From the NCBI RefSeq assembly GCF_003946885.1, contig NZ_RWKQ01000009.1, positions 3,856-67,855 of the forward strand: a stretch of DNA of 64,000 nucleotides. The letters run 5' to 3'. Below, one piece after another: positions 6,168 to 56,184 of this stretch. The notes beneath the pieces were generated by a model, which was given only the letters and a program-made list of their open reading frames with translations, was not told the DNA's origin and ran no database searches. The position numbers and the translations under genes are program-made. This DNA comes from Specibacter cremeus. Its GTDB lineage: Bacteria > Actinomycetota > Actinomycetes > Actinomycetales > Micrococcaceae. Within the stretch, counting starts at the first letter, position 1. Each line of letters starts with the position of its first letter.

Positions 6168-8254
6168 GGGACGGCCACCCGGGACCCGCCGGTCTGCGCG
6201 CCGGAACCTTCGAAACTGAAATCCATCACGGTCGAGTGTCCAGTGATCACCATCTGCCGGGACTGGGACGCCGCACCCCCCGGTTCCAGGCAGGTGAGGA
6301 TGTAGCGGCCGGCCGGGGGCAGCGGCACCTCGTAGTGTCCGGTGGCGGCCGTGGACGCGGAGACCACGAACTCGCCGGTCGGCCGGGTGAGCGTCACCAG
6401 GGCGCCGGGCAGGGCCCGGCCGGAGCCCTGGACGCTTCCTGACAGCGTGAGCCGCTGGGCGAGCCGGATCTGCTGGGCGCTGGAGGAATCGGCGAATTCC
6501 AGCACCTGGGAGGTGGGTTGCCAGCCGTCGGCGCTGGAAATCACCAGATACCGTCCCGGAGCGGGCAAAACGAGCGAGTAGTGCCCGTCGTTGTCCGCCC
6601 GGCTCCAGTCCGCCGGTTCGCCGTTGATGTGCAGGGCATTGACCACCGCGTGCCGGATGGGCCGGAGGTCTTCGCGCACCACGGTTCCGCTGACCACGAT
6701 CTCGTCGTCGGTGGGGGTGCGCACCTCCTCGGTGACACGAATCGGGGCGGCGGCGGTCGCCATCGCACGTTCCGGCGAGGGCACGCCGGCCACGGATCCC
6801 GCAACCTTGGTGGCCGCCTGCAACCGTGGGATGAACACGGACACGCCGATGGACAGCAGGGCCGCGATGGCCGCGTACCAGAACACCTCCTTGAAGGCGT
6901 CCACGGTGGGCAACGCCACCGGACCCACATGGACCACGGTCGAGGTCAGGACCGCCGCCACCACGGCCGACATGGTGGAGGTGCCCACCGCCCGCAGCAG
7001 CGAGTTCAACCCGTTGGCCGAGGCGGTTTCGGTGATCGGGACCGACCGCATGATCAGTGTGGGCATCGCGGCGTAGGCGATTGCCGTACCCATGGAAACC
7101 ACCGTGGCGCCCAGAATCACCATCCAGATTTCACCGGTGAGGAAGACGCGGGCCACATACGCCACGGCCAGGACCAGGGATCCCACAATCAACGTGATCT
7201 TGGCGCCGTACCGCTTGGTGATCATGGCCGAGACGGGTGCCAGGGCCACCATGGCCAGACCGGACGGAACCATGCACAGGCCGGCCACCACCACGCTGAG
7301 CTCGAAACCATAGCCGCCGATCTTGGGCAACTGGAGCTGTTGGGTGGTGCTGAGCATGTTGGCGTACATGGAGAAGCCGACCAGGATGGAGGCGATGTTG
7401 GTCAACAGCACCGGCCGGCGGGCGGAGGTGCGCAGGTCCACCATGGGCTGGCTGACCCGCAATTCGTATGGGAACCAGACGCCCAGGAAGACCACCGTGC
7501 CAATGAAGAGCAGAATGACCGGTTCACTGCTCCAGCCCCAGTCCCCGCCCTTGGAAATGGCCAGCAACAGCGATGTCAGTGCGGCCGTCAGCAGGAGCGC
7601 GCCGACGACGTCGAACGTGCCTTTGGTGCGCACGGACGACTCCGGGACAATCGCCAGGACGGCAATGATCAGCAGCACGCCGATGCCCGCGGAAATCCAG
7701 AAGATGGCCTGCCAGCCCAGGGACTCGTAGATCAGGCCCGCCAGGGGCAGGCCCAACGCGCTGCCGATGCCGAGGGTGGCGCTCATCAACGCCACCGCCG
7801 AGGCCACCTTCTCCCGCGGGAGTTCGTCGCGCATGATGCTGATGCCGACGGGGATCAGGGACGCGGCCAAGCCCTGGAACGCGCGTCCCACCAACAGCGT
7901 GAACAGGGTTCCGCCGACGGCCGCGATCACCGAGCCGATGACCATCGTCACCATGGCCACAACCATCATCCGCCGCTTGCCGAACATGTCCGCCAGCCGG
8001 GAGACGATGGGCGTGGCCACCGCGCTTGTCAGCAGCGTGACCGTCACCAGCCACGACGCGTTGTCCGCCGACGTGTTCAGGATCTTGGGAAAGTCGGGCA
8101 GCAGCGGCACCACCATGGTCTGCTGCAGAGCCACCACGGTCCCCGCCAGGCACAAGATGGTGACCACGAGGGTGGTCCGTTGCGGGTTGGCGGCGTTCCC
8201 GGCCTGCCGTGTGGCACGGCGCGGCGCGGTGGGGGTGGCCAGATGTGACGGCAC
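6164..8254 (-). CDS. MFS transporter (DHA2-like) with two C-terminal carboxypeptidase-regulatory-like domains
   Basis: 696 residues. Residues about 25-470 form a drug:H+ antiporter-type MFS domain with the loop motif RLADMFGKRRMM and a helix-5 region like antiporter motif C (ATLGIGSALGLPLAGLI). A linker follows, then two beta-sandwich modules resembling carboxypeptidase regulatory domains (about 520-590 and 595-680), each with an A-x-V-x-x-L core and a G-x-Y-x-V/L-P-x-P-G-R-Y end. These tails are soluble and probably cytoplasmic given the even helix count. The start is GTG 8254, which has GAAGGAAG just upstream; upstream codons to 8308 run through the operators. Co-transcribed with the TetR gene that overlaps its stop. 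Confidence 0.85.
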   Translation of the reverse strand: MPSHLATPTAPRRATRQAGNAANPQRTTLVVTILCLAGTVVALQQTMVVPLLPDFPKILNTSADNASWLVTVTLLTSAVATPIVSRLADMFGKRRMMVVAMVTMVIGSVIAAVGGTLFTLLVGRAFQGLAASLIPVGISIMRDELPREKVASAVALMSATLGIGSALGLPLAGLIYESLGWQAIFWISAGIGVLLIIAVLAIVPESSVRTKGTFDVVGALLLTAALTSLLLAISKGGDWGWSSEPVILLFIGTVVFLGVWFPYELRVSQPMVDLRTSARRPVLLTNIASILVGFSMYANMLSTTQQLQLPKIGGYGFELSVVVAGLCMVPSGLAMVALAPVSAMITKRYGAKITLIVGSLVLAVAYVARVFLTGEIWMVILGATVVSMGTAIAYAAMPTLIMRSVPITETASANGLNSLLRAVGTSTMSAVVAAVLTSTVVHVGPVALPTVDAFKEVFWYAAIAALLSIGVSVFIPRLQAATKVAGSVAGVPSPERAMATAAAPIRVTEEVRTPTDDEIVVSGTVVREDLRPIRHAVVNALHINGEPADWSRADNDGHYSLVLPAPGRYLVISSADGWQPTSQVLEFADSSSAQQIRLAQRLTLSGSVQGSGRALPGALVTLTRPTGEFVVSASTAATGHYEVPLPPAGRYILTCLEPGGAASQSRQMVITGHSTVMDFSFEGSGAQTGGSRVAVP

Positions 8255-8274
8255 GGGCTTCCTTCGTCGAGAAC

Positions 8275-8315
8275 TGGTGAACGGGCGTTCACCAAACAAG
8301 TGAACCACCGTTCAC
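8275..8315. promoter_or_regulatory. twin palindromic operators upstream of the MFS-TetR operon
   Basis: Two related inverted repeats lie side by side. The first is TGGTGAACG-GG-CGTTCACCA (8275-8294, perfect 9-2-9). The second is GTGAAC-CACC-GTTCAC (8300-8315, perfect 6-4-6). Their centres are 23 bp apart, about two helical turns, which would place two dimers on the same face of the DNA. They lie 21-61 nt upstream of the MFS start codon. This is the typical layout for a TetR repressor, so the gene at 5631-6167 is the likely binder. Confidence 0.75.
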
Positions 8316-8379
8316 CGGGTCGGGTCAATTTGGCCGGGCCGGGTCGCCGCAGGCTGAGACGCCTGTGCGGCGTCCATCA

Positions 8380-8401
8380 TGCAACCTGGGTGCAACGTTG
8401 C
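8380..8401 (+). promoter_or_regulatory. candidate activator site upstream of exaC
   Basis: TGCAAC occurs twice as a direct repeat (8380-8385 and 8391-8396, 11 nt apart, one helical turn). The second copy forms the palindrome GCAACGTTGC (8392-8401). It lies 61-82 nt before the aldehyde dehydrogenase ATG, a sensible place for a regulator site. The GAF-domain regulator at 4350-5606 is a candidate binder, by inference from gene context only. Confidence 0.35.
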
Positions 8402-8461
8402 CCCGCGTAGGCTCTGGCGGCAAGGACATCGAGGTCCTTCCCGTGCAAAGGAGTTTTGGCA

Positions 8462-9985
<1,524 letters not shown>

Positions 9986-11872: not shown

Positions 11873-12487
11873 ATGACTGCACCGACCTTCATCCTGGCCT
11901 CCGCCTCCCCCGCCCGCACCAAGTTGCTCACCGACGCCGGCATTGGCCACCGCGTCATCGTCTCCGATGTGGACGAGGACGCGGTGACCGCGGCGGCGGG
12001 CGCTCCCTCCCCGGCCCGGATGGCGATGCTGCTCGCCCAGGCCAAAGCCGAGGCGGTCGCGGCGACCCCGTCTGCCGCCGGCGCGCTGGTGCTCGGCTGC
12101 GATTCGGTGTTCGAGTTCGACGGCGTCGCGTACGGCAAGCCGTGGGAGCCGGACGTGGCCCGGGAGCGATGGCGACTCATGCGCGGCCGCACCGGGCTGC
12201 TGCACACCGGGCACTGGCTCGTCGACGGCCGGGGCGCTGCCGCCGGTGCCGGGGAGGTGACCAGCGCCGAGGTAACCTTCGCCGATGTGTCCGACGCCGA
12301 GATCGACGCCTACGTGGCCAGCGGGGAACCGCTGCAGGTGGCCGGGGCGTTCACGATCGACGGCCGGGCCGGGGCGTTCATCACCTCCGTCGCCGGCGAC
12401 CCGCACACCGTCATCGGCCTGTCCGTTTCGACGCTGCGGCGCCTGCTGGCAGCCCGGGAGGTGCCGATCACTGACCTCTGGGTATAG
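11873..12487 (+). CDS. maf: Maf family nucleotide pyrophosphatase
   Basis: 204 residues. Maf proteins hydrolyse non-canonical or methylated nucleoside triphosphates to monophosphates in the cytoplasm. The family's opening motif is present as LASASPARTKLL at about residues 8-19. The catalytic Asp region appears as LGCDSVFEFDG near 74-84, followed by GKPWEP. A TAGGCT box seven nucleotides before the ATG suggests a leaderless transcript beginning right after the repeat cluster. The next gene starts about 45 nt downstream and may be co-transcribed. Confidence 0.9.
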   Translation: MTAPTFILASASPARTKLLTDAGIGHRVIVSDVDEDAVTAAAGAPSPARMAMLLAQAKAEAVAATPSAAGALVLGCDSVFEFDGVAYGKPWEPDVARERWRLMRGRTGLLHTGHWLVDGRGAAAGAGEVTSAEVTFADVSDAEIDAYVASGEPLQVAGAFTIDGRAGAFITSVAGDPHTVIGLSVSTLRRLLAAREVPITDLWV

Positions 12488-12531
12488 GCCGTCCCGTGGA
12501 CACCGCGGAGGCGACCACGCAGACTGGGGGC

Positions 12532-13608
12532 ATGAAGGCGACCGGCGACCAGGTGCTGCGTTATCGAGTCCATGCCCAACAATTGGACCGGGATCCCGCC
12601 GCCGAGCACGCCGACACCGCCCTCCTCGACCTGGGCGTGCAGGACACCGGCAACACGGGCAGCGCTTGGGCGCTCGCCCTGCGCGGCGTCCGGTTCGATT
12701 CGCGCGAACATTTCATCGCCTGGACGCTGCGCGGCGCACCCGCCGCGTATCGCCGGGTGCAGGCGGCGCAGATCACGGCCGCCACGGCACCCTACGACGA
12801 GGCGGACGCCGCCAAGCGGGTGTTCGACGCGTCGAAGCCGTTGCAGGCCGCCGGAATCCCCGTGCGCGACGCGCTCGCCGTCGTCGGTGGCCATCTGCGC
12901 GAGATCGCGAGTACACCGGTCGTGAAGGGCGAGGCATCCAGCCGACTCACGGCGGACCTCCCTGACCCCTACCTGAGATACTGCCGGCCGTGCAACGCGA
13001 TCCACAGCTACGAGCAGACCTTCCGGCTTGCGGCCCTCCCCGCCGGGCTGGAACTCGAACCCGGCACCTCTCCCCCAGTGCTGCGGCGGATCCCCGGCTG
13101 GTCCGGTCCCGCGGCCCGGGTGCCCGCCGCGCTCGACCCCGTGCGGGCGTGCCTGCACCTGTTCGGCCCGCTCACCCCGAAGCTCGTCGCGGGGTACCTC
13201 GACGCCTCCATTGCTGCCGTCAAACGGCACTGGCCCGACGACGTCGAGGGGGTCGAGGTCGACGGCGAACGGCGCGACGTCCTCCTGGCCGATGTCCCCC
13301 TGCTCGAGGACCCGCCGACGGGCGACGCCGTGCGGCTGCTCGGCTCGCACGACCTCTTTCTGCAGGCGCGCGACCGCGAGCTCATCCTCGGCGACGAGTC
13401 CCGGCGACGGGGCATGTGGCCCGTCCTGGGGCGGCCAGGCGGTGTGCTGCACGGTCACAGGCTGGTGGGGACGTGGCGCCCCCGCTCGTCCGGGAAGAAG
13501 CTCGCCTTGGCGGTCGAAACGTGGGGAAGGGTGCCGCGGCGCGAGCTGGAAGCCGAGGCGGCGCGACTGGCCGCCCACCGCGGCCAGGAGTTCACCGGAC
13601 TGGCGTGA
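12532..13608 (+). CDS. winged-helix DNA-binding domain protein, AlkZ-like
   Basis: 358 residues resembling the winged-helix (DUF1006/AlkZ-like) proteins, a family that includes DNA glycosylases acting on bulky or cross-linked bases. Visible family-like parts are the N-terminal VLRYRVHAQQLDR and the C-terminal GVLHGHRLVGTWRPR and AEAARLAAHRGQ. Whether it is a glycosylase or a non-catalytic relative is not decided by sequence alone. I use the ATG at 12532, preceded by GGGGG; a GTG at 12496 is also in frame but gives a non-conserved extension. It lies in the same direction as maf with a short gap. Confidence 0.7.
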   Translation: MKATGDQVLRYRVHAQQLDRDPAAEHADTALLDLGVQDTGNTGSAWALALRGVRFDSREHFIAWTLRGAPAAYRRVQAAQITAATAPYDEADAAKRVFDASKPLQAAGIPVRDALAVVGGHLREIASTPVVKGEASSRLTADLPDPYLRYCRPCNAIHSYEQTFRLAALPAGLELEPGTSPPVLRRIPGWSGPAARVPAALDPVRACLHLFGPLTPKLVAGYLDASIAAVKRHWPDDVEGVEVDGERRDVLLADVPLLEDPPTGDAVRLLGSHDLFLQARDRELILGDESRRRGMWPVLGRPGGVLHGHRLVGTWRPRSSGKKLALAVETWGRVPRRELEAEAARLAAHRGQEFTGLA

Positions 13609-13645: not shown

Positions 13646-13690
13646 TTGACGTGGGCGACTTAAAACAAGAAACTATTCTCATATGTGAGT
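13646..13690 (+). promoter_or_regulatory. promoter with box 1 of the shared TATTCTCA motif
   Basis: GAAACTATTCTCATAT (13669-13684) is repeated exactly at 17822-17837, and its core TATTCTCA recurs inverted at 20575-20582. A TTGAC sequence (13646-13650) precedes it at exactly the distance seen at the second site. The box continues into CTCA-TATG-TGAG (13678-13689), a partial palindrome. It lies about 140 nt before the MHS transporter gene and is a candidate operator for the TetR regulator at 19941-20522. Confidence 0.6.
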
Positions 13691-13778
13691 GCGATCTCAT
13701 TCTCGGATCGCCCTTCCGACAGCACCCGATCCCCAGGGAGTACCCCTGGAACCAGTCCAACCGCAGTCCGCGGCAACC

Positions 13779-13798
13779 CCCGAGCCCCTGGGCTCGGG
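13779..13798 (+). other. 5' leader hairpin upstream of the MHS transporter
   Basis: CCCGAGCCC-CT-GGGCTCGGG is a perfect 9-nt inverted repeat in the leader of the transporter mRNA, about 30 nt before the ATG and just ahead of the ribosome-binding site AGAGG. There is no T tract after it, so a rho-independent terminator is unlikely. It could slow ribosome entry or stabilise the message. Confidence 0.5.
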
Positions 13799-13826
13799 TG
13801 CCCGGCCTAGAATCAAGAGGTACCCA

Positions 13827-15176
13827 ATGGCTTCAAGGGAAGCGGCATCAGTGGAACTGAACACCGCAGCGATCAAGGTGGTCACGGCCGACGGCAAGGT
13901 GGTCCGCCGGGCCACCGTGGCCGGTGCCATGGGCTCGTTCGTGGAGTGGTACGACTACGGCATCTACGGCCTGCTGACCACCTACATCGCCGTGAACATG
14001 ATGGGCTCCAAGGACCTGGGCTCGCTGTTCCTGACGAACGTCGGTTTCCTGGTCAGCTTCCTCGCCCGCCCGTTCGGCAGCGTCATCTGCGGCTACCTCG
14101 GGGACAAGATGGGCCGGAAAAACCTCCTGGCGTTCCTGCTGCTGATGATCTCCGGCGCCACCGCCGCCATCGGCCTGATCCCGTCGCACCAGGTCATCGG
14201 CGTCGCCGCACCGGTCCTGCTGATCGCGTTGCGCGTGCTGCAGGGCTTCTCCGCGGGCGGCGAGGTGGCAGGCGCCATGGCGTTCGTGGGCGAGTATGCG
14301 CACAACAAGACGCGCAACTTCGCCATGAGCTTCATCGCCGTCGGCTCCTTCGCCGCCCTTTTCTTCGGCAGCGCGGTCTCGGCGGGGCTCATCACCGTCC
14401 TGGGCGACGCCACGATGGGTGCGTGGGCCTGGCGGGTGCCCTTCCTGCTGGCCGTGCCGCTTGGCCTCATCGGTTTCTACATCCGCACCCGGTTGGAGGA
14501 CACCCCGCATTTCGCCGCCCTCCGGGAACGCAACACGGTGGAGAGCAACCCGCTGCGCGCCGTGTTCACGTCCCGTCGGCACATCTCCGCAATCGTCCTG
14601 ACGATCTTCCTGCCCGCCCTCAACGGTCCGGGGTACTACCTGCTCTTCGCCTACATGCCTACGTACCTCAAGACCAGCCTGGGACGGGATCACAACTTCT
14701 CCATGCTGCAGGCGCTGATCGTGACGGCCTGCTCCCTGGTCGCCATCATCATCGCGATCCCGCTGATGGCCCGGCTGTCCGACCGGATCGGCCGCAAGCC
14801 CGTCTTGGCCATCTCCTCGATCGCCATGGCCGCGGTCTCGTTCCCGATGTTCGCACTCATCACCACGGGCAACATGGGGCCGGCGTGCCTGGCCACCGTC
14901 GTCCTGGCGATCGCCTTCTCGGGGCACGCCGCCGTCGTCCATACCGTGCTGACCGAGCTGTTCCCCACCTCCGTGCGCTACAGCGCCTACAGCATCGGCT
15001 TCTCCATCTCCACCATCATCTTCGGCGGCAGCGCCCCCTTGGTCATGACCGAGATCATCAAGGCCACCGGCAACCCGATGGTGCCCGCGTACGCCTCCAT
15101 CATCACCGCGTTGATCACCCTGGCCACGGTCTTCCTGCTCAAGGAAACCAAGGGCCAGGAACTGCGCAGCGCCTGA
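13827..15176 (+). CDS. MFS transporter, metabolite:H+ symporter (MHS) family
   Basis: 449 residues with about 12 membrane helices. The MHS hallmarks are SFVEWYDYGIYG (about 33-44), RPFGSVICGYLGDKMGRK in the first cytoplasmic loop, RVLQGFSAGGEVAGA, and LSDRIGRKP in the central loop. Such carriers import organic acids, betaines or similar small molecules with protons. The ATG at 13827 follows AGAGG; upstream in-frame codons are leader. It heads an operon-like run with the PxpA/B/C-like genes, so it probably imports their substrate. Its promoter carries the shared TATTCTCA box. Confidence 0.9.
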   Translation: MASREAASVELNTAAIKVVTADGKVVRRATVAGAMGSFVEWYDYGIYGLLTTYIAVNMMGSKDLGSLFLTNVGFLVSFLARPFGSVICGYLGDKMGRKNLLAFLLLMISGATAAIGLIPSHQVIGVAAPVLLIALRVLQGFSAGGEVAGAMAFVGEYAHNKTRNFAMSFIAVGSFAALFFGSAVSAGLITVLGDATMGAWAWRVPFLLAVPLGLIGFYIRTRLEDTPHFAALRERNTVESNPLRAVFTSRRHISAIVLTIFLPALNGPGYYLLFAYMPTYLKTSLGRDHNFSMLQALIVTACSLVAIIIAIPLMARLSDRIGRKPVLAISSIAMAAVSFPMFALITTGNMGPACLATVVLAIAFSGHAAVVHTVLTELFPTSVRYSAYSIGFSISTIIFGGSAPLVMTEIIKATGNPMVPAYASIITALITLATVFLLKETKGQELRSA

Positions 15177-15206
15177 CCCCATCCAGCAACCACCCCAGGA
15201 GTCAAC

Positions 15207-16013
15207 ATGGGAATCAACAAAGTGGCCGTCGTGGCCGACCTCGGCGAAAGCTTCGGCAACTACACCATCGGCGACGACGACGCCCTGCTGGGCCTGGTCA
15301 CCGCCTCCAACATCGCCTGCGGCTTCCATGCCGGCGACCCCCGCGTCATGGACGCGACCGTCGCCGCGTGCGTGGCGCGCGGCATCGAGCTCGGCGCCCA
15401 CCCCGGCTACCCGGATCTGGTGGGTTTCGGCCGGCGCCTGATCGAGGCCAGCGAGGAGGAGATCCGCACCGACGTGCTGTACCAGATCGGGGCGCTGGAC
15501 GCCTTCGCCCGCGTGCACGGCGGAACCATCAGCCACGTGGCCCCGCACGGCCGGATGGGCTCGATCGCCCAGACCGACGCCAAGCATGCGCGTGCCATCA
15601 CCGACGCAATCGCCGCGTACAACAAGGATTACGTGGTCATCTGCCAGAACGGACTGCTCGCCGACGAGTCGCGCAAGCGCGGACTGGCCGTCGGGTACGT
15701 GTTTCTGGCCGACCGCGGCTACGGCGACGACGGCATGCCGGTGGCCCGCTCGCACGCCGGCGGGCTGCTCCACGACCCGGCGGAGATCGGCCGGCGCGTC
15801 GTGCAGGTCGTCACCGAGGGCACCGTGACGAGCGTGGACGGCAACACGGTGCCGCTGGGCCACGATTGCGACGTCGTCCTGCTTCACGGGGACCATCCAC
15901 AGGTGCTGGAGAACGGCACGGCCCTGCGCAGGGCACTGGACGCGGCCGGCATCAAGGCGACCGGGCTGCGCGACGTGCTGGCCGAGAAGTCCGCCGCCGC
16001 GACCCCCGCCTGA
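15207..16013 (+). CDS. divergent PxpA-like (LamB/YcsF family) subunit
   Basis: 268 residues of the LamB/YcsF family; the studied member PxpA is a subunit of the ATP-dependent 5-oxoprolinase. Clear family segments are ASNIACGFHAGDP, LGAHPGYPD, VLYQIGALDAFAR and FLADRGYGDDG. Two signature sites differ from the canonical protein: the N-terminal DLNADLGE is VVADLGES here, and the VKPHG(A/M)LYN motif reads VAPHGRMGS, losing the Lys. It lies 30 nt after the transporter and 29 nt before the PxpB-like gene, in the standard A-B-C order. I infer a ring-opening hydrolase subunit whose substrate may not be 5-oxoproline. Confidence 0.82.
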   Translation: MGINKVAVVADLGESFGNYTIGDDDALLGLVTASNIACGFHAGDPRVMDATVAACVARGIELGAHPGYPDLVGFGRRLIEASEEEIRTDVLYQIGALDAFARVHGGTISHVAPHGRMGSIAQTDAKHARAITDAIAAYNKDYVVICQNGLLADESRKRGLAVGYVFLADRGYGDDGMPVARSHAGGLLHDPAEIGRRVVQVVTEGTVTSVDGNTVPLGHDCDVVLLHGDHPQVLENGTALRRALDAAGIKATGLRDVLAEKSAAATPA

Positions 16014-16042
16014 GCCGCCACCACCACGACCGCAAGCGAGCC

Positions 16043-16801
16043 ATGACCTCACCCCCTGCATTCGAGCCGACGCTGACCCCCTACGGGGACAGCGCCCTGA
16101 TGATCGCCGCCACCGACCCCGATCCGGCCGGGCGCCGGCGGACCATGGGCGCCGCGCGACGGGCCGTGGAGACGCGGCGCCCGCACGGCGTGGTGGACCT
16201 TGTGGCCGGGCTGGAATCACTCCTGGTCGAATTCGACCCCCTTGAGGTGAGCACGGAGGCCCTGGCGACGCTGTTGCGCCTGACGCTCGACGCGCACCAG
16301 CCCGACGCCGGACCGGACGCCACCGCGCCGACCCACTTCACCATCCCGGTGTTGTTCGACGACGCCGTCGCCCCCGACCTGGCCGAGGTGGCGGCCGAAC
16401 AGGGGCTGGACCAGGCGACCCTCGTCGAGCGCTTCGCGTCCTTCTCGCTGTCCATCTCGCTGCTTGCGGCGGCCATGGCCCCGATGATGGACGGCGCCGC
16501 GTTCGACACCCCCGTGAGCCGGTGCACGCTGCCGCGCACCGACGTGGCCGCCGGTTCCATCATGGTCGCCGGCGCCAACGCCATCATCCAGCCGTTCCCC
16601 GGCCCCACGGGCTGGAAGGTCATCGGCCGGACGCCGCTGCGCATCTGCGACATCGCCCGCACCCCGCCCACGTCGTACCGGCCCGGGGACACCGTCCGGT
16701 TCGTGCCAATCGACGCCCCGGAATACGACCGGCTGGCGGGCCGTTTCCTGACTGCGGATACGCCGGTGGCCGACGCCGCCGAAGGCGCGGGTGCGCCATG
16801 A
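16043..16801 (+). CDS. divergent PxpB/KipI-like subunit
   Basis: 252 residues aligning with KipI/PxpB (allophanate hydrolase subunit 1 family) through the N-terminal YGDSALMI, the middle FTIPVLFDDAVAPDLAEVAA, and the C-terminal PTGWKVIGRTPLRI. The hallmark segment G-F-x-P-G-F-P-Y-L-x-G is replaced by a stretch containing LLAAAMAPMMDGA, and the Q-T-G-I-Y-P site by NAIIQP, so active-site chemistry may differ. The stop overlaps the start of the PxpC-like gene by 4 nt (ATGA), as is usual for pxpB-pxpC. The ATG at 16043 begins MTSPPAFEP; the frame is open upstream but overlaps the PxpA-like gene there. Confidence 0.78.
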   Translation: MTSPPAFEPTLTPYGDSALMIAATDPDPAGRRRTMGAARRAVETRRPHGVVDLVAGLESLLVEFDPLEVSTEALATLLRLTLDAHQPDAGPDATAPTHFTIPVLFDDAVAPDLAEVAAEQGLDQATLVERFASFSLSISLLAAAMAPMMDGAAFDTPVSRCTLPRTDVAAGSIMVAGANAIIQPFPGPTGWKVIGRTPLRICDIARTPPTSYRPGDTVRFVPIDAPEYDRLAGRFLTADTPVADAAEGAGAP

Positions 16802-17784
16802 TCCGCACCGTGGCACTGCACGTGAGCGAGGCCGGCTGGCTCTCCACCTACCAGGACCTGGGACGCACCGGCGCGGAGGCGCTCGGTGTGCCGTGCGGCG
16901 GCGCCGCGGACCAGCACTCGGCCGCCGTCGCCAACATCCTCGTCGGCAACGCCCGGAACGCCACGTTGCTGGAGATCCTCGGCGGCACGTTCGCCTTCAC
17001 ACCCGACGCCGATGTGTTGGTGGCCGTCACGGGCACCGAAACGACACTTACCGTGGACGGGCTGCCGACACCCCTGTGGGAACCGGTCGTCGTCCCCGCC
17101 GGCTCGCGGGTTCGGCTCGGCCCGGCCACGGGCGGGCTCCGGTCCTATCTCGCGATCGGGGGCGAGCTGGCCGCGCCCCGCTTCCTGGGCAGCGCCGCAC
17201 CGGATGCGCGGATGCGCTTCCCCCAGCTGATCGCCCGGGGCGACACCCTGGGCGTCCACAGCGGGCCCGTCCCCGCGACGCATCCGGACTTCGGCGTGCC
17301 CCTGTACCGCTTCCCGGTCCCCCGGCTCCCGCTGCCGGAGGGGACGTGGACCCTGGACCTGGTCGAGGGCCCGGAGACGGCGGCGGTCCCCGGCATCCGC
17401 GAACTGCTCGCGACCAGCACCTACACCGTCGGACCCCAGTCGGATCGGGTGGGGCTTCGGCTTGATGGGCCGGTGCTGCACCCGCAGGGCCTCGGCGAGA
17501 TCGTCTCGCATGGCGTGCCCGTCGGGGCTCTGGAGATCCCGCATTCCGATGAATTGATCATCCTGGGCCGGTACCGCACCCTCACGGCGGGGTACCCGAT
17601 CGTCGCGTTCGTCACGACGGCCTGCCAGGACCTGCTCGGCCAGGCGGGCCCCGGCCGGACGATCGGCTTCCGCTGGGTCGACGAGGCTGCGGCCGTGCGG
17701 GGCTTGCGCGAGTCCCGGCAACGCCTGGACTTCCTCGAGGCGCGGGTCAAATCCGCGTACGCCGCGTGCGGCACCTCGCCGTGA
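16798..17784 (+). CDS. PxpC/KipA-like (allophanate hydrolase subunit 2 family) subunit
   Basis: 328 residues. The opening family motif is well kept (TYQDLGRTGAEALGVP, then AVANILVGNARNATLLEI, residues about 18-61), and the C-terminal half keeps VGPQSDRVGLRLDG and GEIVSHGVPVGALEIP. The usual S-G-A-M-D reads GGAAD, and the family's final G-G-Y-P segment appears as LTAGYPIVAFV. With the PxpB-like partner it should form the B-C complex that phosphorylates or activates the ring carbonyl. It ends the transporter-pxp operon; the next gene has its own promoter box at 17799-17837. Confidence 0.82.
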   Translation: MIRTVALHVSEAGWLSTYQDLGRTGAEALGVPCGGAADQHSAAVANILVGNARNATLLEILGGTFAFTPDADVLVAVTGTETTLTVDGLPTPLWEPVVVPAGSRVRLGPATGGLRSYLAIGGELAAPRFLGSAAPDARMRFPQLIARGDTLGVHSGPVPATHPDFGVPLYRFPVPRLPLPEGTWTLDLVEGPETAAVPGIRELLATSTYTVGPQSDRVGLRLDGPVLHPQGLGEIVSHGVPVGALEIPHSDELIILGRYRTLTAGYPIVAFVTTACQDLLGQAGPGRTIGFRWVDEAAAVRGLRESRQRLDFLEARVKSAYAACGTSP

Positions 17785-17798
17785 GGCCCGGGCCGGGC

Positions 17799-17840
17799 TT
17801 GTCCTTCGCGCAATAAAGTGCGAAACTATTCTCATATAAG
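17799..17840 (+). promoter_or_regulatory. promoter with box 2 of the shared TATTCTCA motif
   Basis: GAAACTATTCTCATAT (17822-17837) is identical to 13669-13684. TTGTCC (17799-17804) sits at the same spacing before it as TTGACG does in the first promoter. It lies 33 nt before the GTG of the SDR gene. TTCT-CATATA-AGAA (17830-17843) adds a partial palindrome. It is the presumed operator for the local TetR regulator, controlling the SDR-aminotransferase-TetR transcript. Confidence 0.6.
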
Positions 17841-17869
17841 AAATCAAACTCAACCCTGGAGATGGCAAC

Positions 17870-18676
17870 GTGGGACTACTTGACGGCAAGGTGGCGCTGG
17901 TGACGGGCGCAGGCACGGGCATGGGCGCCGCGAGCGCGGCCCTGCTCGCGGCGGACGGCGCGACCGTCGTGCTGGTGGGCCGGCGCCGGAAGATCCTGGA
18001 CGACGTGGCGGCGACCATCACCGCCCAAGGCGGCCACGCCGTCGTCCGGCCCGCCGACATCACCTCGCAGGAGCAAGTGACGGCCCTGGTCGACGGCGTG
18101 CGCCAGGACGTCGGCGGCATCGACATCCTGGTCAACAACGCCGGCAGCTCGTCGACGGTCCTCAACGCCCGCTGGATCAGCGAAGCGGAGTGGCGCCAGG
18201 TCATGGACGTGAACATGACCGCGGTCTTCCTGCTCAGCCAGGCGGTGCTGGGGGACATGATCGCCCGGGGCGAGGGCACGATCATCACGGTCTCCTCGCT
18301 GGCCGCCGTCAATCCGAACCTGCTCGGCGGGGCGGCGTACGGGGCCGCCAAGGCCGCGGCCCGCAATTTCATGACGTACCTGCACAACACCTTCCGCGGT
18401 GACGGCCTGCGCGCCATCACCATCCTGCCCGGGGAAACCGCCACCCCGATCCTGGACAACCGGGCCCGGCCGCCGCGGGAGGACGAACGGCTCGCCATGG
18501 TCCAACCGGAGGACGTGGCGCGGGCCGTTCACCTGGCCGCTTCCATGCCCGCCCGGACGGTCGTCCAGGAGCTCGTCATCGCCCCGACCCGACAGCGGGA
18601 CACCTCCGCGGACATCGAGATCAGCCGATGGGCCGGCGCGCCGGCCGGCGTCGGACCGAAACCCTCCGCCTCCTAG
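17870..18676 (+). CDS. SDR family oxidoreductase
   Basis: 268-residue short-chain dehydrogenase with cofactor motif TGAGTGMG (about 12-19), NNAG, a catalytic Ser in VSSLAA, and YGAAK as the active-site Tyr/Lys pair. It starts with GTG at 17870, with GGAGATGG just upstream. It is the first gene after the second shared promoter box, with an aminotransferase 27 nt behind it, so I place it in the same pathway as the PxpABC-like genes. A plausible role is oxidation of a hydroxyl group before or after ring opening. Substrate and cofactor are unassigned. Confidence 0.87.
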   Translation: MGLLDGKVALVTGAGTGMGAASAALLAADGATVVLVGRRRKILDDVAATITAQGGHAVVRPADITSQEQVTALVDGVRQDVGGIDILVNNAGSSSTVLNARWISEAEWRQVMDVNMTAVFLLSQAVLGDMIARGEGTIITVSSLAAVNPNLLGGAAYGAAKAAARNFMTYLHNTFRGDGLRAITILPGETATPILDNRARPPREDERLAMVQPEDVARAVHLAASMPARTVVQELVIAPTRQRDTSADIEISRWAGAPAGVGPKPSAS

Positions 18677-18703
18677 ACACCTCCCCCGATCGACAGGACC
18701 GAC

Positions 18704-19873
18704 ATGACCACTCTCCAACCCGCCCCCGCGGCCCTTCCGTTCCAAGCGGCCGACGCCGTTCGCCGCGTCGAACGCAACTCCCTGCGCGTCCAGCAGCCAC
18801 AGTCCAGCGGCGACATGGTGTCCCTGGCCATGGGGGAACCCGGGTTCGACACGCCCGTCCAGGTGCGGGAGGCCGCGGCCCGGGCGCTCGAGGAGGGCTA
18901 CACGCACTACTCGCCGCTGCTCGGGGAAGCGCCGTTGCGCGAGGAGCTGGCCGGCGTGATCGGAGGGCTCCGTGCCACGGAAACCCTCGCCACCGACGTC
19001 CTCATCACCCAGGGCGGGACGGCCGGGCTGTCCGCGGCCATGCTCTCGATCATCAACCCGGGTGATCGCGTCGCCATCCCCGACCCGACCTACTCGCTCT
19101 ACGCGGACCTGGTCTCGCTCGCCGGCGGCGTCACCGTGCCCGTGCCGCTGGGCGCCGACCTGCACTGGGACCTCGAGCGGCTGGCGGAGGCGCTGGCCGG
19201 GGCAAAGCTGTTCGTGTTCTGCAACCCGTCGAACCCGACCGGCATCGTGCACACGCGTGCCGAACTGGAGGCACTGGCCGACATGCTGAGCGGCACGGAC
19301 ACGATTGTGCTCTCGGATGAGGCGTACAGCGCCCTGGTCTACACGGCCGAGCCGTTCACCTCCGCCCTGTCCGTGCCGGGCCTGGAGGGCCGGACGGTCT
19401 ACTGCCAGACGTTCTCCAAGACCTATGCCATGACGGGCTGGCGCGTGGGCTACCTCTGGGGCCCGTCCGACATGATCCGCGCAGCCGCCCGCATGCACAA
19501 CACCTTCAACGGGTCCGTGAACACCGCCGTGCAGGTCGCTGCCCTGACCGCGCTGCGAACGGGCGCCCCCGACGTGGCACGGATGCACGCCGCCTACGCC
19601 GAGCGCCGCGACATCATGCGCGCGGGCCTGGCGGCCATCCCCCGCCTCAGCGTCGGCAACCCGGAGGGCGCGTTCTACCTGTTCCCGCGCTACGCGGCGG
19701 ACATCAGCAGCGCCGACCTCGTCGCGCACCTGCGCGGCTTCGGCGTGGCCGTGCGCCCCGGCAGCGAGTTCGGCCGCCACGGCGAGGGCCACCTCCGCCT
19801 GTCCTACGCGGCACCGGCGTCGTCCATCGCGGCCGGGGTCGAGCGCCTGGCCGCCGGCCTGCGGGCCCTCTGA
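18704..19873 (+). CDS. pyridoxal phosphate-dependent aminotransferase, class I/II
   Basis: 389-residue fold-type I aminotransferase related to aspartate/aromatic aminotransferases. The N-terminal VSLAMGEPGFDTP, CNPSNPTGIVH, LSDEAYSALVY and the PLP-lysine motif FSKTYAMTGWRVGY (Lys about residue 239) are all present, as is the C-terminal Arg segment GHLRLSYA. It would convert an amino acid, possibly the glutamate-like product of the PxpABC-like enzyme, into its 2-oxo acid. It lies between the SDR and the TetR gene on one apparent transcript. The amino donor and acceptor are not known. Confidence 0.9.
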   Translation: MTTLQPAPAALPFQAADAVRRVERNSLRVQQPQSSGDMVSLAMGEPGFDTPVQVREAAARALEEGYTHYSPLLGEAPLREELAGVIGGLRATETLATDVLITQGGTAGLSAAMLSIINPGDRVAIPDPTYSLYADLVSLAGGVTVPVPLGADLHWDLERLAEALAGAKLFVFCNPSNPTGIVHTRAELEALADMLSGTDTIVLSDEAYSALVYTAEPFTSALSVPGLEGRTVYCQTFSKTYAMTGWRVGYLWGPSDMIRAAARMHNTFNGSVNTAVQVAALTALRTGAPDVARMHAAYAERRDIMRAGLAAIPRLSVGNPEGAFYLFPRYAADISSADLVAHLRGFGVAVRPGSEFGRHGEGHLRLSYAAPASSIAAGVERLAAGLRAL

Positions 19874-19940
19874 GCCGATGCGCGCGATCGTCGCCACGCC
19901 ACGCGTTAGGGTGGACACGACACCCAAGGGGGGACGGACC

Positions 19941-20522
19941 ATGCGCAGCGACACCCAACGCAATCGCCGCCAGCTCGTGAAGGCCGCGGGCAGGCTCTTC
20001 GCGGGCACCACGGCCCCCATCAGCATGTCGGACCTCGCCAAGGCGGCGGAGATCTCCCCCGCCACCGCCTACCGGCACTTCGCCAGCGTCGAGGACGTCC
20101 TGGCCGAGTTCCGGTTCGGCGTGGGTGAAAAGCTACGCGACTTCAGCGTCAAGCAGAGCGCCTCCGGGCTCGACCTGCTGGACGCGGTCAGCCGCAAGTG
20201 GATCGCCTTGGTGGTACGGCATGGCGGCGCCATGGTCCACACCCGGTCCGGCGAGGGCTACCTGGCCCGCCTCGACGCCGGCGCCTACTACCTGACGATC
20301 CAGGCCGAAGCGCTCGAACGCCCCCTGACCGAGGCCTGCGACGAGCTGGGCATCGCCCACCTGGGCCGCGAGGCCATGTTCCTCTGGAACATCCTGTTCG
20401 ACCCGCGCGAGATCTTCGACCTGCGCGACACGCTGCACCTGGCGGAAGACCAGATCGGCACGCGCCTGCTGGCCGCACTCCGGGGCGCCCTGGGCGGATG
20501 GGCCGCGGCGCGCGGCGGCTGA
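19941..20522 (+). CDS. TetR family transcriptional regulator of the pxp-like island
   Basis: 193 residues. The HTH is SMSDLAKAAEISPATAYRHFAS, at about residues 29-50. The start at ATG 19941 is preceded by AAGGGGGGAC; an in-frame ATG at 19878 is only 5 nt after the aminotransferase stop and gives a non-conserved tail. It is the only transcription factor in the 13.6-21.3 kb island, so it is the best candidate to bind the TATTCTCA boxes in front of the transporter, SDR and aldolase genes. If so, it also controls its own transcript. The ligand is presumably an intermediate of the pathway. Confidence 0.88.
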   Translation: MRSDTQRNRRQLVKAAGRLFAGTTAPISMSDLAKAAEISPATAYRHFASVEDVLAEFRFGVGEKLRDFSVKQSASGLDLLDAVSRKWIALVVRHGGAMVHTRSGEGYLARLDAGAYYLTIQAEALERPLTEACDELGIAHLGREAMFLWNILFDPREIFDLRDTLHLAEDQIGTRLLAALRGALGGWAAARGG

Positions 20523-20560
20523 GCCCCTCCTCTTGCCTGCGGGCACCCGACCGGGCAGAC

Positions 20561-20590
20561 TTGACACCAAAATTTGAGAATACTATATCA
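20561..20590 (+). promoter_or_regulatory. promoter with inverted box 3 of the shared TATTCTCA motif
   Basis: A near-consensus promoter: TTGACA (20561-20566), a 17-nt spacer, and TATATC (20584-20589). The spacer contains TGAGAATA (20575-20582), the reverse complement of TATTCTCA in boxes 1 and 2. Placement between -35 and -10 fits repression. The predicted start site favours the ATG at 20627 with its ribosome-binding site over the in-frame ATG at 20600. Confidence 0.65.
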
Positions 20591-20626
20591 TTTGCGACTA
20601 TGCATTCACTTAGGAAAGAGGCTGGC

Positions 20627-21262
20627 ATGCCATCCGCAAACATCCGGGTCCGCGGCGACTGGACCCGCCCCGACCCGTCCCTGCTCGACGCCTTCCGGAC
20701 CCGGTCCGTGGCGAACCTCGGCGACGCGATGGACCGGCTCGGCATCGTCGACGGCGGCATCGAGCCGATCTGGGAGGGCGCCCGGGCCGTCGGGTCGGCC
20801 CTGCCGGTACTGACCGTCGCCGGCGACAACCTGGCCGTCATCGAGGCCTTGGAGCACATCCGCCCCGGCGACATCCTCATGATCAACGCCTTCGGGTACA
20901 ATGGCCGGGCGATCATGGGCGACAACCTCGCCCAGCGCTTCGAGCACTTCGGCGCGACCGGCGCGGTCCTCGACGGCTACGCCCGGGATCGCTCCATCAT
21001 CAGGGACCTCGGCTTCCCCGTTTTTGCCCGTGGGCTGACCCCGGCCGGGCCGTTCAAGCACGGCCCGGGCACCATCGGCGAACCCGTGGCGATCGGCGGG
21101 GTGGTCGTCAATGCCGGGGACATCGTCGTGGCCGACGACGACGGCGTGATCGTCATCCCCGTGGAACGCGCCCCGGAGGTGTTGGCCGAGGTGGTCAAGA
21201 TCGAGGAACTGGAAGCCAGCAAGGACGCCGAGGTCGCCGCGATGCGGGGACGGTCAACCTAG
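20627..21262 (+). CDS. RraA-like aldolase / demethylmenaquinone methyltransferase-like family protein
   Basis: 211 residues of the RraA-like fold. Characterised catalytic members are class II aldolases cleaving 4-hydroxy-4-methyl-2-oxoglutarate or 4-carboxy-4-hydroxy-2-oxoadipate to pyruvate; others (RraA) inhibit RNase E. Family residues are visible in GDNLAQRFEHFGATGAVLDG and ARDRSIIRDLGFPVFARG, the Gly-x-Asn/Arg-Asp surroundings of the metal and pyruvate site. The start ATG 20627 has AGGAAAGAGG upstream. The gene has its own TetR-box promoter but clearly belongs to the island, suggesting an aldol cleavage as the last step. Confidence 0.82.
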   Translation: MPSANIRVRGDWTRPDPSLLDAFRTRSVANLGDAMDRLGIVDGGIEPIWEGARAVGSALPVLTVAGDNLAVIEALEHIRPGDILMINAFGYNGRAIMGDNLAQRFEHFGATGAVLDGYARDRSIIRDLGFPVFARGLTPAGPFKHGPGTIGEPVAIGGVVVNAGDIVVADDDGVIVIPVERAPEVLAEVVKIEELEASKDAEVAAMRGRST

Positions 21263-21273
21263 CCGACGCCAGA

Positions 21274-21290
21274 TTGTAGGATTCCTACAA
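21274..21290. promoter_or_regulatory. perfect palindrome TTGTAGG-ATT-CCTACAA
   Basis: A 7-3-7 perfect inverted repeat in the gap between the aldolase and the carboxylase genes, 94 nt before the carboxylase start. Its length and symmetry suit a GntR/FadR-type repressor, but no such gene is in the window, so the binder would be encoded elsewhere. It lacks a T tract and is short for a terminator. Confidence 0.5.
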
Positions 21291-21383: not shown

Positions 21384-23174
<1,791 letters not shown>

Positions 23175-53911: not shown

Positions 53912-55189
53912 ATGAAGCGCATCGAACGTCCCCACACCCTGCAACGCGGCAGCTACCCCGAATTCGTGCGCATCAGCGCCATCCTCCGCTCCGAGACCGT
54001 GGGCGGGGCCCTGCTGCTGGCGGCCACCGTCATCGCCCTGGCCTGGGCCAACTCGCCATGGTCGGCCGGGTACTTCTCGCTGCGGGACGCGACGATCGGG
54101 CCGGCCGCCCTGCATCTGGACCTGAGCCTTGGCACGTGGGCCGCCGACGGGCTGCTGGCCATCTTCTTCTTCGTCGCCGGGCTGGAGCTCAAGCGCGAAT
54201 TCGTGGCCGGCGACCTGCGCAGCCCGGCCCGCGCGATCGTCCCGATCGCGGCGGCCGTTGGCGGGGTGGCCGTCCCGGCGCTGGTCTTCACGCTGGTCAA
54301 CCTCACCGCCGGGCCGGGGGTGCTGCGCGGCTGGGCCATTCCGACGGCCACCGACATCGCCTTCGCGCTGGCCGTGCTGGCCGTGATCAGCACCCACCTG
54401 CCCGGGGCGTTGCGCACGTTCCTGCTCACGCTGGCCGTCGTGGACGACCTGCTCGCGATCGCCATCATCGCCGTGTTCTACCCGGGTGAGATGCACCTGC
54501 AATACCTGGCCCTCGCGCTCGCGCCGTTGGCGGCGTTCACCTGGCTGGTGCAGCGGCGGGTGCGCAGCTGGTACCTGCTGCTGCCGCTGGCGTTCGCCGC
54601 GTGGGCCCTGGTGCACGCCTCGGGCATCCACGCGACGGTGGCCGGGGTGCTGCTGGGCTTTGCCGTGCCGGTGCTGCGGTCGGCCCGCGGTGGCGGCCCC
54701 GGTGCCGGTCCCGGCCTTGCCGAACACTTCGAGCACCGCTTCCGGCCCTTGTCGGCCGGGGTGGCGGTGCCGCTGTTCGCGTTCTTCTCGGCGGGCGTGG
54801 CGGTGGGCGGTGCGGCGGGGCTGCGTTCGGCCCTGTCCGATTCGGTGGCCCTGGGCATCGTGGCTGCGCTCGTGGCGGGCAAGTTCGTCGGCGTGCTCGG
54901 CGCCACGTACGTCGTGACGAAGTCGACGCGAGCGTCACTGGCCGCCGGCCTGGCCTGGATCGACGTCGCCGGGTTGGCCCTGTTGGCCGGCGTCGGGTTC
55001 ACCGTGTCGCTGCTCATCAGCGAGCTCGCGTTCGGTCACGACAGTCCGCACACCGACCATGCGAAGGTGGCCATCCTGGCCGGGTCGTTGATTTCCGCGC
55101 TGCTGGCGGCCGTCGTGCTGCGCGCCCGCAACCGGCACTACCGCCGGATTGAAGCACTGGAACGGGCCGACGACGGCGGCGTGCCGTGA
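53912..55189 (+). CDS. nhaA: Na+/H+ antiporter NhaA
   Basis: 425 residues with about 12 helices. The family's essential region is present: [17 protein letters not shown] (with its conserved Asp) and the following [17 protein letters not shown], where the Asp pair lies. It exports sodium (or lithium) in exchange for protons and helps pH and salt balance. ATG 53912 is preceded by CTGGAG. A GTG start of vanZ overlaps its stop by 4 nt, so the two are co-transcribed. Confidence 0.94.
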
Positions 55190-55611
55190 GCACATCCGCG
55201 CGCCGAGTGGTCCTTGTCCTGGCCGTGCTGTATCTCGTGGCCCTGGCCGGCATCGCCTTTTGGCCCTCCCCCGTCGACAGACCAATCGACGGGGCGCTGA
55301 TGCGCGTCCTGGACTGGCTGCATGGCTACGGCCTGCCGGCGTGGTTCATCGGTTACCGCAAGGTGGAGTTCGCCGCGAACATCGTTCTGTTCATCCCGTT
55401 CGGCATGCTGGCCACGCTGCTGCTGCCGGCCCGGCGCTGGTGGTTGGCCGTGGTGGCCGCCGCCGCCGTGTCCGGCGGCATCGAGACCACGCAGGGGCTG
55501 TTGCTGCCGGCACGGGTCGCCAGCTGGAGCGACCTCGTGGCGAACACGTCCGGTGCGCTGGCCGGCGCCGCGGCCATGGCGCTCATGCTGGCCCGGCTGC
55601 GCCGGGTCTGA
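55186..55611 (+). CDS. VanZ family protein
   Basis: 141 residues, four membrane helices. It carries the VanZ family pattern ([41 protein letters not shown]). VanZ in enterococci raises teicoplanin resistance by an unknown mechanism; housekeeping relatives have no set function. GTG start, coupled to nhaA (GTGA). The final codon and the stop (GTC TGA) lie inside a decayed copy of the dispersed repeat (from 55605), so its 3' end appears to come from the element. Confidence 0.87.
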
Positions 55612-55697
55612 CAAGCTCGACCGCCGCCGGCGATTGAGCCCGTCGAAATCCCGGGTCTCGACGAGTTCGACCACCGGTGATTGAGCCTGTCGAAATC
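55605..55697. repeat. dispersed repeat cluster at the vanZ/sufU 3' ends
   Basis: Four copies: partial (55605-55622), direct (55629-55650), inverted (55654-55675) and direct (55676-55697). The stop codon of vanZ lies inside the first and that of sufU (55696-55698) overlaps the last by 2 nt. The paired inverted and direct copies can fold as a hairpin between the convergent genes. Confidence 0.9.
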
Positions 55698-56184
55698 ACA
55701 CGGCCTGCCTGAGCGCGTCCTCGGCCGCCACCCAGGCGAGCATGGCGCACTTGACCCGGGCGGGGAACTTGGCGACGCCGGACAGCGCCGCGGCGTCCCC
55801 CAACACGTCCTCGTCGCCGACCACGGCGCCCCGCGACCGCATGACCACGCGGAACTGCTCGATCAACCCGGCCAGCTCCTCCGGCGTCATGCCGACGGCC
55901 AGTTCCGCCAGGATGGACGCCGAGGCCATCGAGATCGAGCAGCCGTCCCCCGACCACAGCAGCTCGCCCACCCGGGCACTTGCGGGCGTGCCGCCGTCGT
56001 CCGCGTTTTCCACCACGAGCCGCAACGTGATCTCGTCGCCGCAGACCGGGTTGAGCTGGTGGCACTGGCCGGTGCCGGCGGGCAGGTGGACGGCGGCCGC
56101 CTGGTCGTCGGTCAGCGTGGCGCCGTGCCGGGCCTTCGCCTGTTCCAGGATGATCTGCTGGTACAGCGAATCCAGGGCGCTCAC
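55696..56184 (-). CDS. sufU: Fe-S cluster assembly protein SufU
   Basis: 162 residues of the NifU/SufU type. Its three conserved cysteines are visible in NPVCGDE, DGCSISMASAS and RVKCAML. SufU is a zinc-dependent sulfur acceptor that takes persulfide sulfur from SufS. It starts with GTG directly after the SufS stop (TAG GTG, no gap), so the two are translationally linked. Its stop codon overlaps the dispersed repeat. SufB, SufC and SufD are not in the window. Confidence 0.93.
   Translation of the reverse strand: MSALDSLYQQIILEQAKARHGATLTDDQAAAVHLPAGTGQCHQLNPVCGDEITLRLVVENADDGGTPASARVGELLWSGDGCSISMASASILAELAVGMTPEELAGLIEQFRVVMRSRGAVVGDEDVLGDAAALSGVAKFPARVKCAMLAWVAAEDALRQAV

Follow-up and report, generated by a model that had tools for sequence, protein, structure and literature searches.

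What is the substrate of an operon that joins the three subunit families of the PxpABC 5-oxoprolinase to an aminotransferase and an RraA-like protein? Such an island lies in a 64-kb stretch of the Specibacter cremeus genome (contig NZ_RWKQ01000009.1; the whole stretch is hereafter the window), where eight + strand genes fill 13.8-21.3 kb; the host genome comprises 4.3 Mb in 98 contigs. From comparison of sequences, we propose with moderate confidence that the island is a TetR-regulated actinobacterial module that would open a lactam other than 5-oxoproline, transaminate the product, cleave it with the RraA-like protein and, in fuller versions, feed a 2-ketoaldonate route.

A first-pass annotation of the same DNA had grouped an MHS (metabolite:H+ symporter) transporter, three PxpABC-type subunits, a short-chain dehydrogenase/reductase (SDR), an aminotransferase, a TetR regulator and an RraA-like protein here. 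All were found on the + strand, and Pfam agrees with each. The span given for the island, 13646-21262, held for its genes but probably not for its left edge: the transporter most likely starts at the ATG at 13827 and not near 13646, because a conserved operator-like site occupies 13673-13691.

13827..15176, + strand: MHS-type MFS transporter (Pfam Sugar_tr/MFS_1), present in 45 of 46 related loci
15207..16013, + strand: PxpA-like (LamB/YcsF) subunit of a divergent subfamily (PF03746, LamB_YcsF, 254 bits)
16043..16801, + strand: PxpB-like (CT_C_D) subunit without GFxPGFPYL (PF02682, 125 bits)
16798..17784, + strand: PxpC-like (CT_A_B) subunit (PF02626, 208 bits), its start overlapping the PxpB stop
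17870..18676, + strand: SDR oxidoreductase with Ser-Tyr-Lys residues (PF00106, adh_short, 169 bits)
18704..19873, + strand: class-I pyridoxal-phosphate aminotransferase (PF00155, Aminotran_1_2, 218 bits)
19878..20522, + strand: TetR-family regulator (PF00440, TetR_N, 28 bits), present in 44 of 46 related loci
20627..21262, + strand: RraA-like protein with HMG/CHA-aldolase (4-hydroxy-4-methyl-2-oxoglutarate/4-carboxy-4-hydroxy-2-oxoadipate aldolase) residues (PF03737, RraA-like, 138 bits)

The transporter scores 323.6 bits against TIGR00883, under the cut-off of 443. Among the related loci described below, the Ser, Tyr and Lys of the SDR are present in 46 of 46 and the Lys and Arg of the aminotransferase in 44 of 44; the best PDB match of the latter is 1j32, an aspartate aminotransferase.

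Divergence of the PxpA, PxpB and PxpC subunits

We aligned 48 PxpA rows of the island's subfamily (47 distinct sequences, as L126 repeats L051) with 34 other PxpA rows, mostly from sampled actinobacteria plus E. coli and Thioclava; a paralogue from the same genome, L070, was kept apart. Residues N9, A55, K112, L117, E165 and C225 occur in all 34 of the other rows and Y118 in 33, and in 47-48 of the 48 subfamily rows the series N9, A55, K112, L117, Y118, E165, C225 reads V, C, A, M, G, V, L. The motif losses that the first-pass annotation reported in DLN and VKPHG-x-LYN are thus real differences and not alignment shifts. The Asn of DLN (34/34 others) is Val in 48/48, the Lys of KPHG (34/34) is Ala in 47/48 and Asn in Rhodococcus, and the Tyr of LYN (33/34) is Gly in 48/48. 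By contrast with these positions, D11, G13, E14, H41, R76, H114, H227 and D229, which are likely the catalytic residues, are retained in every row, and R116 has been gained in all 48 subfamily rows. The pattern indicates fixed swaps, not drift, and a complex that by its residues is divergent and not degenerate.

The other two subunits have changed as well. PxpB was said to lack the GFxPGFPYL motif, and an AMAPMM-type stretch indeed replaces it throughout the subfamily: at window positions 145, 146 and 148, no less than 98% of the 48 rows have M, A and M, where no less than 93% of the other rows have P, G and Y. The Tyr of the QTGVYP stretch is also gone. PxpC carries fixed changes such as R209 to His in 98% of rows, although the window protein itself retains the Arg.

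In trees of PxpA, PxpB and PxpC (45, 38 and 39 rows), each including E. coli as the only named PxpABC, 19 chosen subfamily rows formed a single clade outside E. coli with support of 100/93, 100/99 and 99/98, respectively. L070 adjoins this clade in all three (100/99, 99/95 and 100/99). The PxpA tree drew a long-branch warning that included L070 and E. coli, the PxpC tree an odd-composition warning for E. coli and others, and among the 26 other loci, 7 gave no match for PxpB and 6 none for PxpC and so are missing from those trees. As far as tested, with E. coli as the sole reference, the objection that the subunits cluster with canonical PxpABC or are merely misaligned fails. NCBIfam cut-offs were not taken to indicate divergence, since several of them are also missed by further copies of PxpA, PxpB and PxpC in the same genome.

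Distribution, operator-like motif and neighbouring genes

Scanning genome contigs with the PxpA protein yielded 47 loci; a Thioclava locus (L059; 41% identity, PxpA alone of the gene set) was excluded from later counts, leaving 46. These span Arthrobacter and close genera (Micrococcaceae), Streptomyces, Microbacteriaceae and Rhodococcus. PxpA, PxpB, PxpC and the SDR are present in 46/46, the transporter and RraA in 45/46, and the aminotransferase and TetR in 44/46, all gaps being confined to three loci cut by contig ends (L039, L043 and L050). Identities to the window proteins are 77-89% for PxpA (59% in Rhodococcus), 61-83% for the transporter, 46-61% for PxpB and 52-63% for PxpC. As controls, we took 20 of the 29 PxpA loci that a search of the phylum had found in other genomes, with flanks of similar size. 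None of them has RraA, SDR, IdnO or GntK; an aminotransferase (28%) occurs in one, as does an MHS transporter (29-30%, the same locus), and IdnD in two (32-33%). Carriage is patchy: at an E value of 1e-100, only one of 22 congeneric genomes has the PxpA subfamily, and so does only one in a sample of 196 other genomes from the family. We infer that the module has probably been transferred horizontally among actinobacteria. Many Arthrobacter-group loci (L016-L021, L023, L024 and others) have a tandem pair of TetR genes after the aminotransferase, at about 14.8 and 15.4 kb.

The host genome holds four further LamB_YcsF genes. One, L070 (G000:C55:5000-23000), belongs to a distant second island with PxpA (52%), PxpB (42%), PxpC (42%), MHS (48%) and SDR (36%) homologues and a LysR gene. 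A glyoxylate-reductase-like D-2-hydroxyacid dehydrogenase, an RraA (31%) and an aminotransferase (32%) lie 3-6 kb from its PxpA; this run may form a unit of its own. Operator sites at L070 score 13.2 bits at most. A transthyretin/HIU-hydrolase-family gene near L070 suggests purine catabolism nearby.

From words common to the regions upstream of the MHS and RraA genes we derived a 19-base motif, and from 17 distinct sites of relatives, with the window held out, a scoring matrix. The window has two places above 12 bits:

13673..13691, - strand: operator-like site 1 (CTATTCTCATATGTGAGTG on the + strand), 136 bp upstream of the MHS start, 30.0 bits with the held-out matrix
17826..17844, - strand: operator-like site 2 (CTATTCTCATATAAGAAAT on the + strand), between PxpC and the SDR, 24.5 bits with the held-out matrix

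Site 2 also scores 14.4 bits on the other strand, one base on, and the region upstream of the window RraA gives only a weak match of 0.4 bits. With up to two mismatches, CTATTCTCATATRWGA matches the 4.3-Mb genome twice, at the island's two sites, both promoters; as it was built from those sites, the scan measures rarity and is not an independent discovery. Across both strands of the 46 loci (0.91 Mb) there are 108 sites above 14 bits, against 2-5 in five shuffles, and the best score in the control loci is 16.7 bits. The TetR protein presumably binds these sites.

Counting sites above 14 bits from -300 to +60 of gene starts, we found them before RraA in 33/45, the transporter in 19/45 and the SDR in 33/46, before PxpA, PxpB and PxpC in 0/46 each, and before the aminotransferase and TetR genes in 1/44 each. 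Genes outside the core also carry sites: glutamate dehydrogenase (4/4), SBP_bac_5 (11/11), gluconokinase (5/11) and the less common of two types of D-2-hydroxyacid dehydrogenase (5/7). There are none before IdnD (0/21), Gnd (0/7) or the ABC permease (0/11). Several of these genes have a single divergent site in common: glutamate dehydrogenase with the transporter, seven SBP genes with RraA, and gluconokinase with the dehydrogenase.

The neighbours themselves were counted in flanks of up to 10 kb on each side of the 46 loci, under names that rest on one or two examples each. IdnO-like genes occur in 23 loci (20 at 45% identity or more), IdnD-like genes in 21 and GntK in 11, compared with 0, 2 and 0 of the 20 controls. 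One type of D-2-hydroxyacid dehydrogenase is present in 23 loci (21 at 45% or more) and another in 8 (7), Gnd in 7 and an SBP_bac_5 ABC transporter in 11. Glutamate dehydrogenase lies between RraA and the transporter in five Microbacteriaceae loci and has matches in nine loci overall, including ones near 33% elsewhere. In Streptomyces loci, RraA, the D-2-hydroxyacid dehydrogenase and in some cases IdnO, IdnD and Gnd run divergently from the transporter and PxpABC genes, and the neighbourhood recurs in differing gene orders in Streptomyces, Microbacteriaceae, Micrococcaceae and Rhodococcus. The motif and these island-tied gluconokinase, idonate/gluconate-dehydrogenase, D-2-hydroxyacid-dehydrogenase and glutamate-dehydrogenase genes of some relatives go beyond the first-pass annotation. 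Together they suggest that the second cleavage fragment is sugar-acid-like.

Proposed pathway and its alternatives

HMG/CHA aldolases cleave a 4-hydroxy-2-oxo acid to pyruvate and another 2-oxo acid. By manual count in an alignment to the Pseudomonas putida F1 enzyme (3noj), the window RraA keeps Asn-71, Gly-101, Asp-102, Arg-123, Asp-124, Lys-147 and Glu-199. The metal and enolate pattern (acidic-X20-Arg-Asp, Lys), which we take to be the motif named D-X20-R-D, is present, with the Arg, Asp and Lys invariant in 45/45 loci. In that enzyme Arg-123 is reported to be essential, Asp-124 and Glu-199 to bind the metal, and N71A and K147A to cut kcat more than 1000-fold, K147A by 1114-fold (PMC5065237). 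The aldolase role first assigned to the protein is supported by these residues. Against equivalog models it stays below the cut-offs, with 141.0 bits of 179 and 125.7 of 304.5 (ligK/PcmE). Elsewhere in the genome, three RraA-family genes stand in a row at L132 (G000:C41:18000-34000), positions 7086-8911.

In the pathway that we favour, the co-diverged PxpABC-like complex would most likely use ATP to open a substituted, pyroglutamate-like lactam other than 5-oxoproline. The aminotransferase would turn the resulting amino acid into a 4-hydroxy-2-oxo acid, RraA would split this into pyruvate and a second 2-oxo acid, and a D-2-hydroxyacid dehydrogenase would reduce the latter. In fuller versions the second product is probably a 2-ketoaldonate, which idonate/5-ketogluconate dehydrogenases and gluconokinase would carry to 6-phosphogluconate. 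We infer this order of steps from how the genes fit together: a PxpABC-like complex ahead of an aminotransferase fits the opening of a pyroglutamate-like lactam; the aminotransferase, the glutamate dehydrogenase nearby in some loci and the D-2-hydroxyacid dehydrogenase fit HMG/CHA-aldolase chemistry; and gluconokinase with idonate/gluconate dehydrogenases fits a 2-ketoaldonate as second product. The divergent catabolic operon proposed at first pass is upheld in part, in that the subunits co-diverge, the gene set is kept in 46 loci, RraA and the SDR occur in none of 20 controls, and the genome has a similar second island.

A more specific version, which we regard as tentative and unlikely, has a C9 substrate: the lactam of a 4-hydroxyglutamate with a four-carbon polyol at C4, which amounts to an alanine-like C3 unit linked to a 2-ketohexonate. 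After lactam opening, the aminotransferase would give a 4-hydroxy-4-alkyl-2-oxoglutarate and RraA would release pyruvate and 2-ketohexonate; the D-2-hydroxyacid dehydrogenase, IdnD, IdnO and gluconokinase would then convert the hexonate into 6-phosphogluconate, and the paralogous L070 island would handle a smaller side chain in the same way. If true, this would reveal a general catabolic logic for 4-hydroxy-4-alkylpyroglutamates and imply that a class of natural compounds from soil or plants has so far escaped recognition.

Several observations weigh against the pathway with its sugar-acid branch. No IdnO homologue was found in the fetched flanks of 23 of the 46 loci, and a site precedes IdnO-like genes in 5 of 20 only and the commoner type of D-2-hydroxyacid dehydrogenase in 0 of 21. 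The IdnD and IdnO examples fall under their equivalog cut-offs (252 of 469 and 274 of 408 bits), so their substrates may differ. The window genome's own idonate/gluconate cluster (IdnO 69%, IdnD 70%, Gnd 57%, D-2-hydroxyacid dehydrogenase 49%) lies on another contig, C42, without a site above 12 bits, and the operator link to idn genes is therefore not seen in this genome. The operator matrix is partly circular, since its sites come from the very loci that it scores, many of which are closely related, and the best site of the Rhodococcus locus (21.8 bits) stands off the usual places, before the aminotransferase. In RraA, the window protein has Ile, again by manual count, where the P. putida enzyme has Arg-195, and the first acidic residue is Glu in 19/45 loci (Asp in 26/45).

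Some of these points would equally be expected if two separate functions simply occur side by side: a short route for a hydroxy-lactam (such as 4-hydroxypyroglutamate, giving pyruvate and glyoxylate) and an independent idonate/gluconate pathway. Of the alternatives this survives best, yet we judge it unlikely. It would account for IdnD/IdnO homologues in only 21-23 of 46 loci, for the separate idn cluster with its own IclR and MHS genes, and for the glyoxylate-reductase-like protein near RraA at L070. It sits less well with the operator-like sites that some Arthrobacter-group loci have before IdnO, a D-2-hydroxyacid dehydrogenase and gluconokinase, and with a neighbourhood that recurs across four groups despite its varied order.

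An iminosugar-type substrate is improbable. Opening of a 5-amino-5-deoxyhexonic acid lactam and removal of the C5 amino group would give 5-ketogluconate and then, on reduction, gluconate, which explains IdnO, GntK and Gnd directly but leaves no role for the conserved aldolase residues of RraA or for the D-2-hydroxyacid dehydrogenase; moreover, alpha-amino acids are the usual substrates of class-I aminotransferases. We also considered routes for agropinic acid and nojirimycin, on which a literature search yielded nothing useful.

Equally improbable is an ordinary L- or D-5-oxoprolinase with drifted motifs, even though the broad NCBIfam subfamily model "5-oxoprolinase subunit PxpA" accepts the window protein (273.8 against 226 bits). 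The residue changes are fixed and the clades separate, conversion of 5-oxoproline to glutamate requires no aldolase, and the genome has its four other LamB_YcsF genes, one of them near DUF969 and DUF979 genes. That locus, L067 (G000:C2:20000-33000), contains PxpA, a single open reading frame matching PxpB and PxpC, a biotin carboxylase-biotin carboxyl carrier protein (BC-BCCP) gene, GntR, DUF969 and DUF979. The DUF969 and DUF979 proteins are presumably 5-oxoproline transporter subunits; they have no NCBIfam match, and their use as proof of a 5-oxoproline locus elsewhere in the genome was not confirmed.

Least probable is a biotin-dependent carboxylase of the urea-carboxylase kind, with its biotin carboxylase next door or in trans: PxpB and PxpC do each match one half of a carboxyltransferase domain, and a biotin carboxylase gene follows the island and occurs near other PxpA genes, but the neighbour is a housekeeping gene and none of the 47 loci fetched with PxpA has a biotin carboxylase in its flanks.

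21384..23174, + strand: housekeeping biotin carboxylase-BCCP gene, outside the island by its conservation in congeners

This gene is present in 22/22 other genomes of the genus at 81-86% identity. There, maf stands just before it (within the fetched 1.5 kb in 18/22), at about 1.2 kb in L128 and L129 and closer in some genomes. DNA similarity of the window to L128 and L129 ends near 12482 and restarts near 21274; therefore an AlkZ-like gene and the island sit in a segment that both lack. In genome G404, the biotin carboxylase is some 0.9 Mb away from the island. We reject it as an island partner because it is housekeeping and because L128 and L129, the two congeners whose DNA was compared with the window, lack the island segment next to it. 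The AlkZ-like DNA glycosylase gene (12496-13608) lies in the segment absent at maf from L128 and L129, and no homologue of it was found at an E value of 1e-5 in the searched congener loci and PxpA-fetched loci. Biotin carboxylase genes occur in the flanks of 7 of the 20 control loci, and at L068 (G000:C2:58000-73000) one stands with PxpA, PxpB and PxpC; a biotin-dependent lactam enzyme is possible at loci of the L067/L068 type. Elsewhere in the window, AT skew reaches its most extreme tabulated value, -0.242, at 54001-56000.

Comparison with known systems

The enzyme kinds in the island are already known, and the subfamily is a widespread variant of them. A literature search to which most subscription papers were closed returned no account of the subfamily, the eight-gene module or the link between the operator and idonate or gluconokinase genes, which is weak evidence of absence. 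NCBIfam names this PxpA a 5-oxoprolinase subunit despite uniformly different residues at positions fixed in other members. The comparison, which spans four actinobacterial families, yields a specific pathway open to testing for an environmental nitrogen compound. It also offers an example of a lactam-opening type of complex linked to a putative retro-aldolase and, in some relatives, to enzymes of sugar-acid metabolism.

Urea carboxylase and carboxyltransferase proteins of the KipI/KipA type share the PxpB and PxpC domain families, but the island module is without a dedicated biotin carboxylase. The L-idonate/ketogluconate pathway comprises IdnD, IdnO, a 2-ketoaldonate reductase, GntK/IdnK and Gnd. 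In some relatives, homologues lie next to the island or have the same operator-like site upstream; unlike in that pathway, they are joined to a lactamase-like complex and an aldolase-like protein, the IdnD and IdnO examples do not reach the equivalog cut-offs, and in the window genome they are unlinked. With the P. putida F1 HMG/CHA aldolase the island protein shares the RraA family and the aligned Asn, Asp, Arg-Asp and Lys (3noj; PMC5065237), whereas it stays well under the ligK/PcmE cut-off, belongs to a lactam-type operon and has relatives with Glu as first acidic residue. PxpABC, the prokaryotic ATP-dependent 5-oxoprolinase (pxpBCA in E. coli), also unites the three subunit families and comes with genes for a transporter and a regulator. 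Where Corynebacterium glutamicum pxpTABC has an APC-type PxpT and a GntR-type PxpR (PMC13274462), the island has an MHS transporter and a TetR regulator. The island's subunits fall in separate clades, with PxpA residues N9, K112, Y118, E165 and C225 and the PxpB motif GFxPGFPYL replaced, and to the PxpABC set the island adds an aminotransferase, an SDR and RraA.

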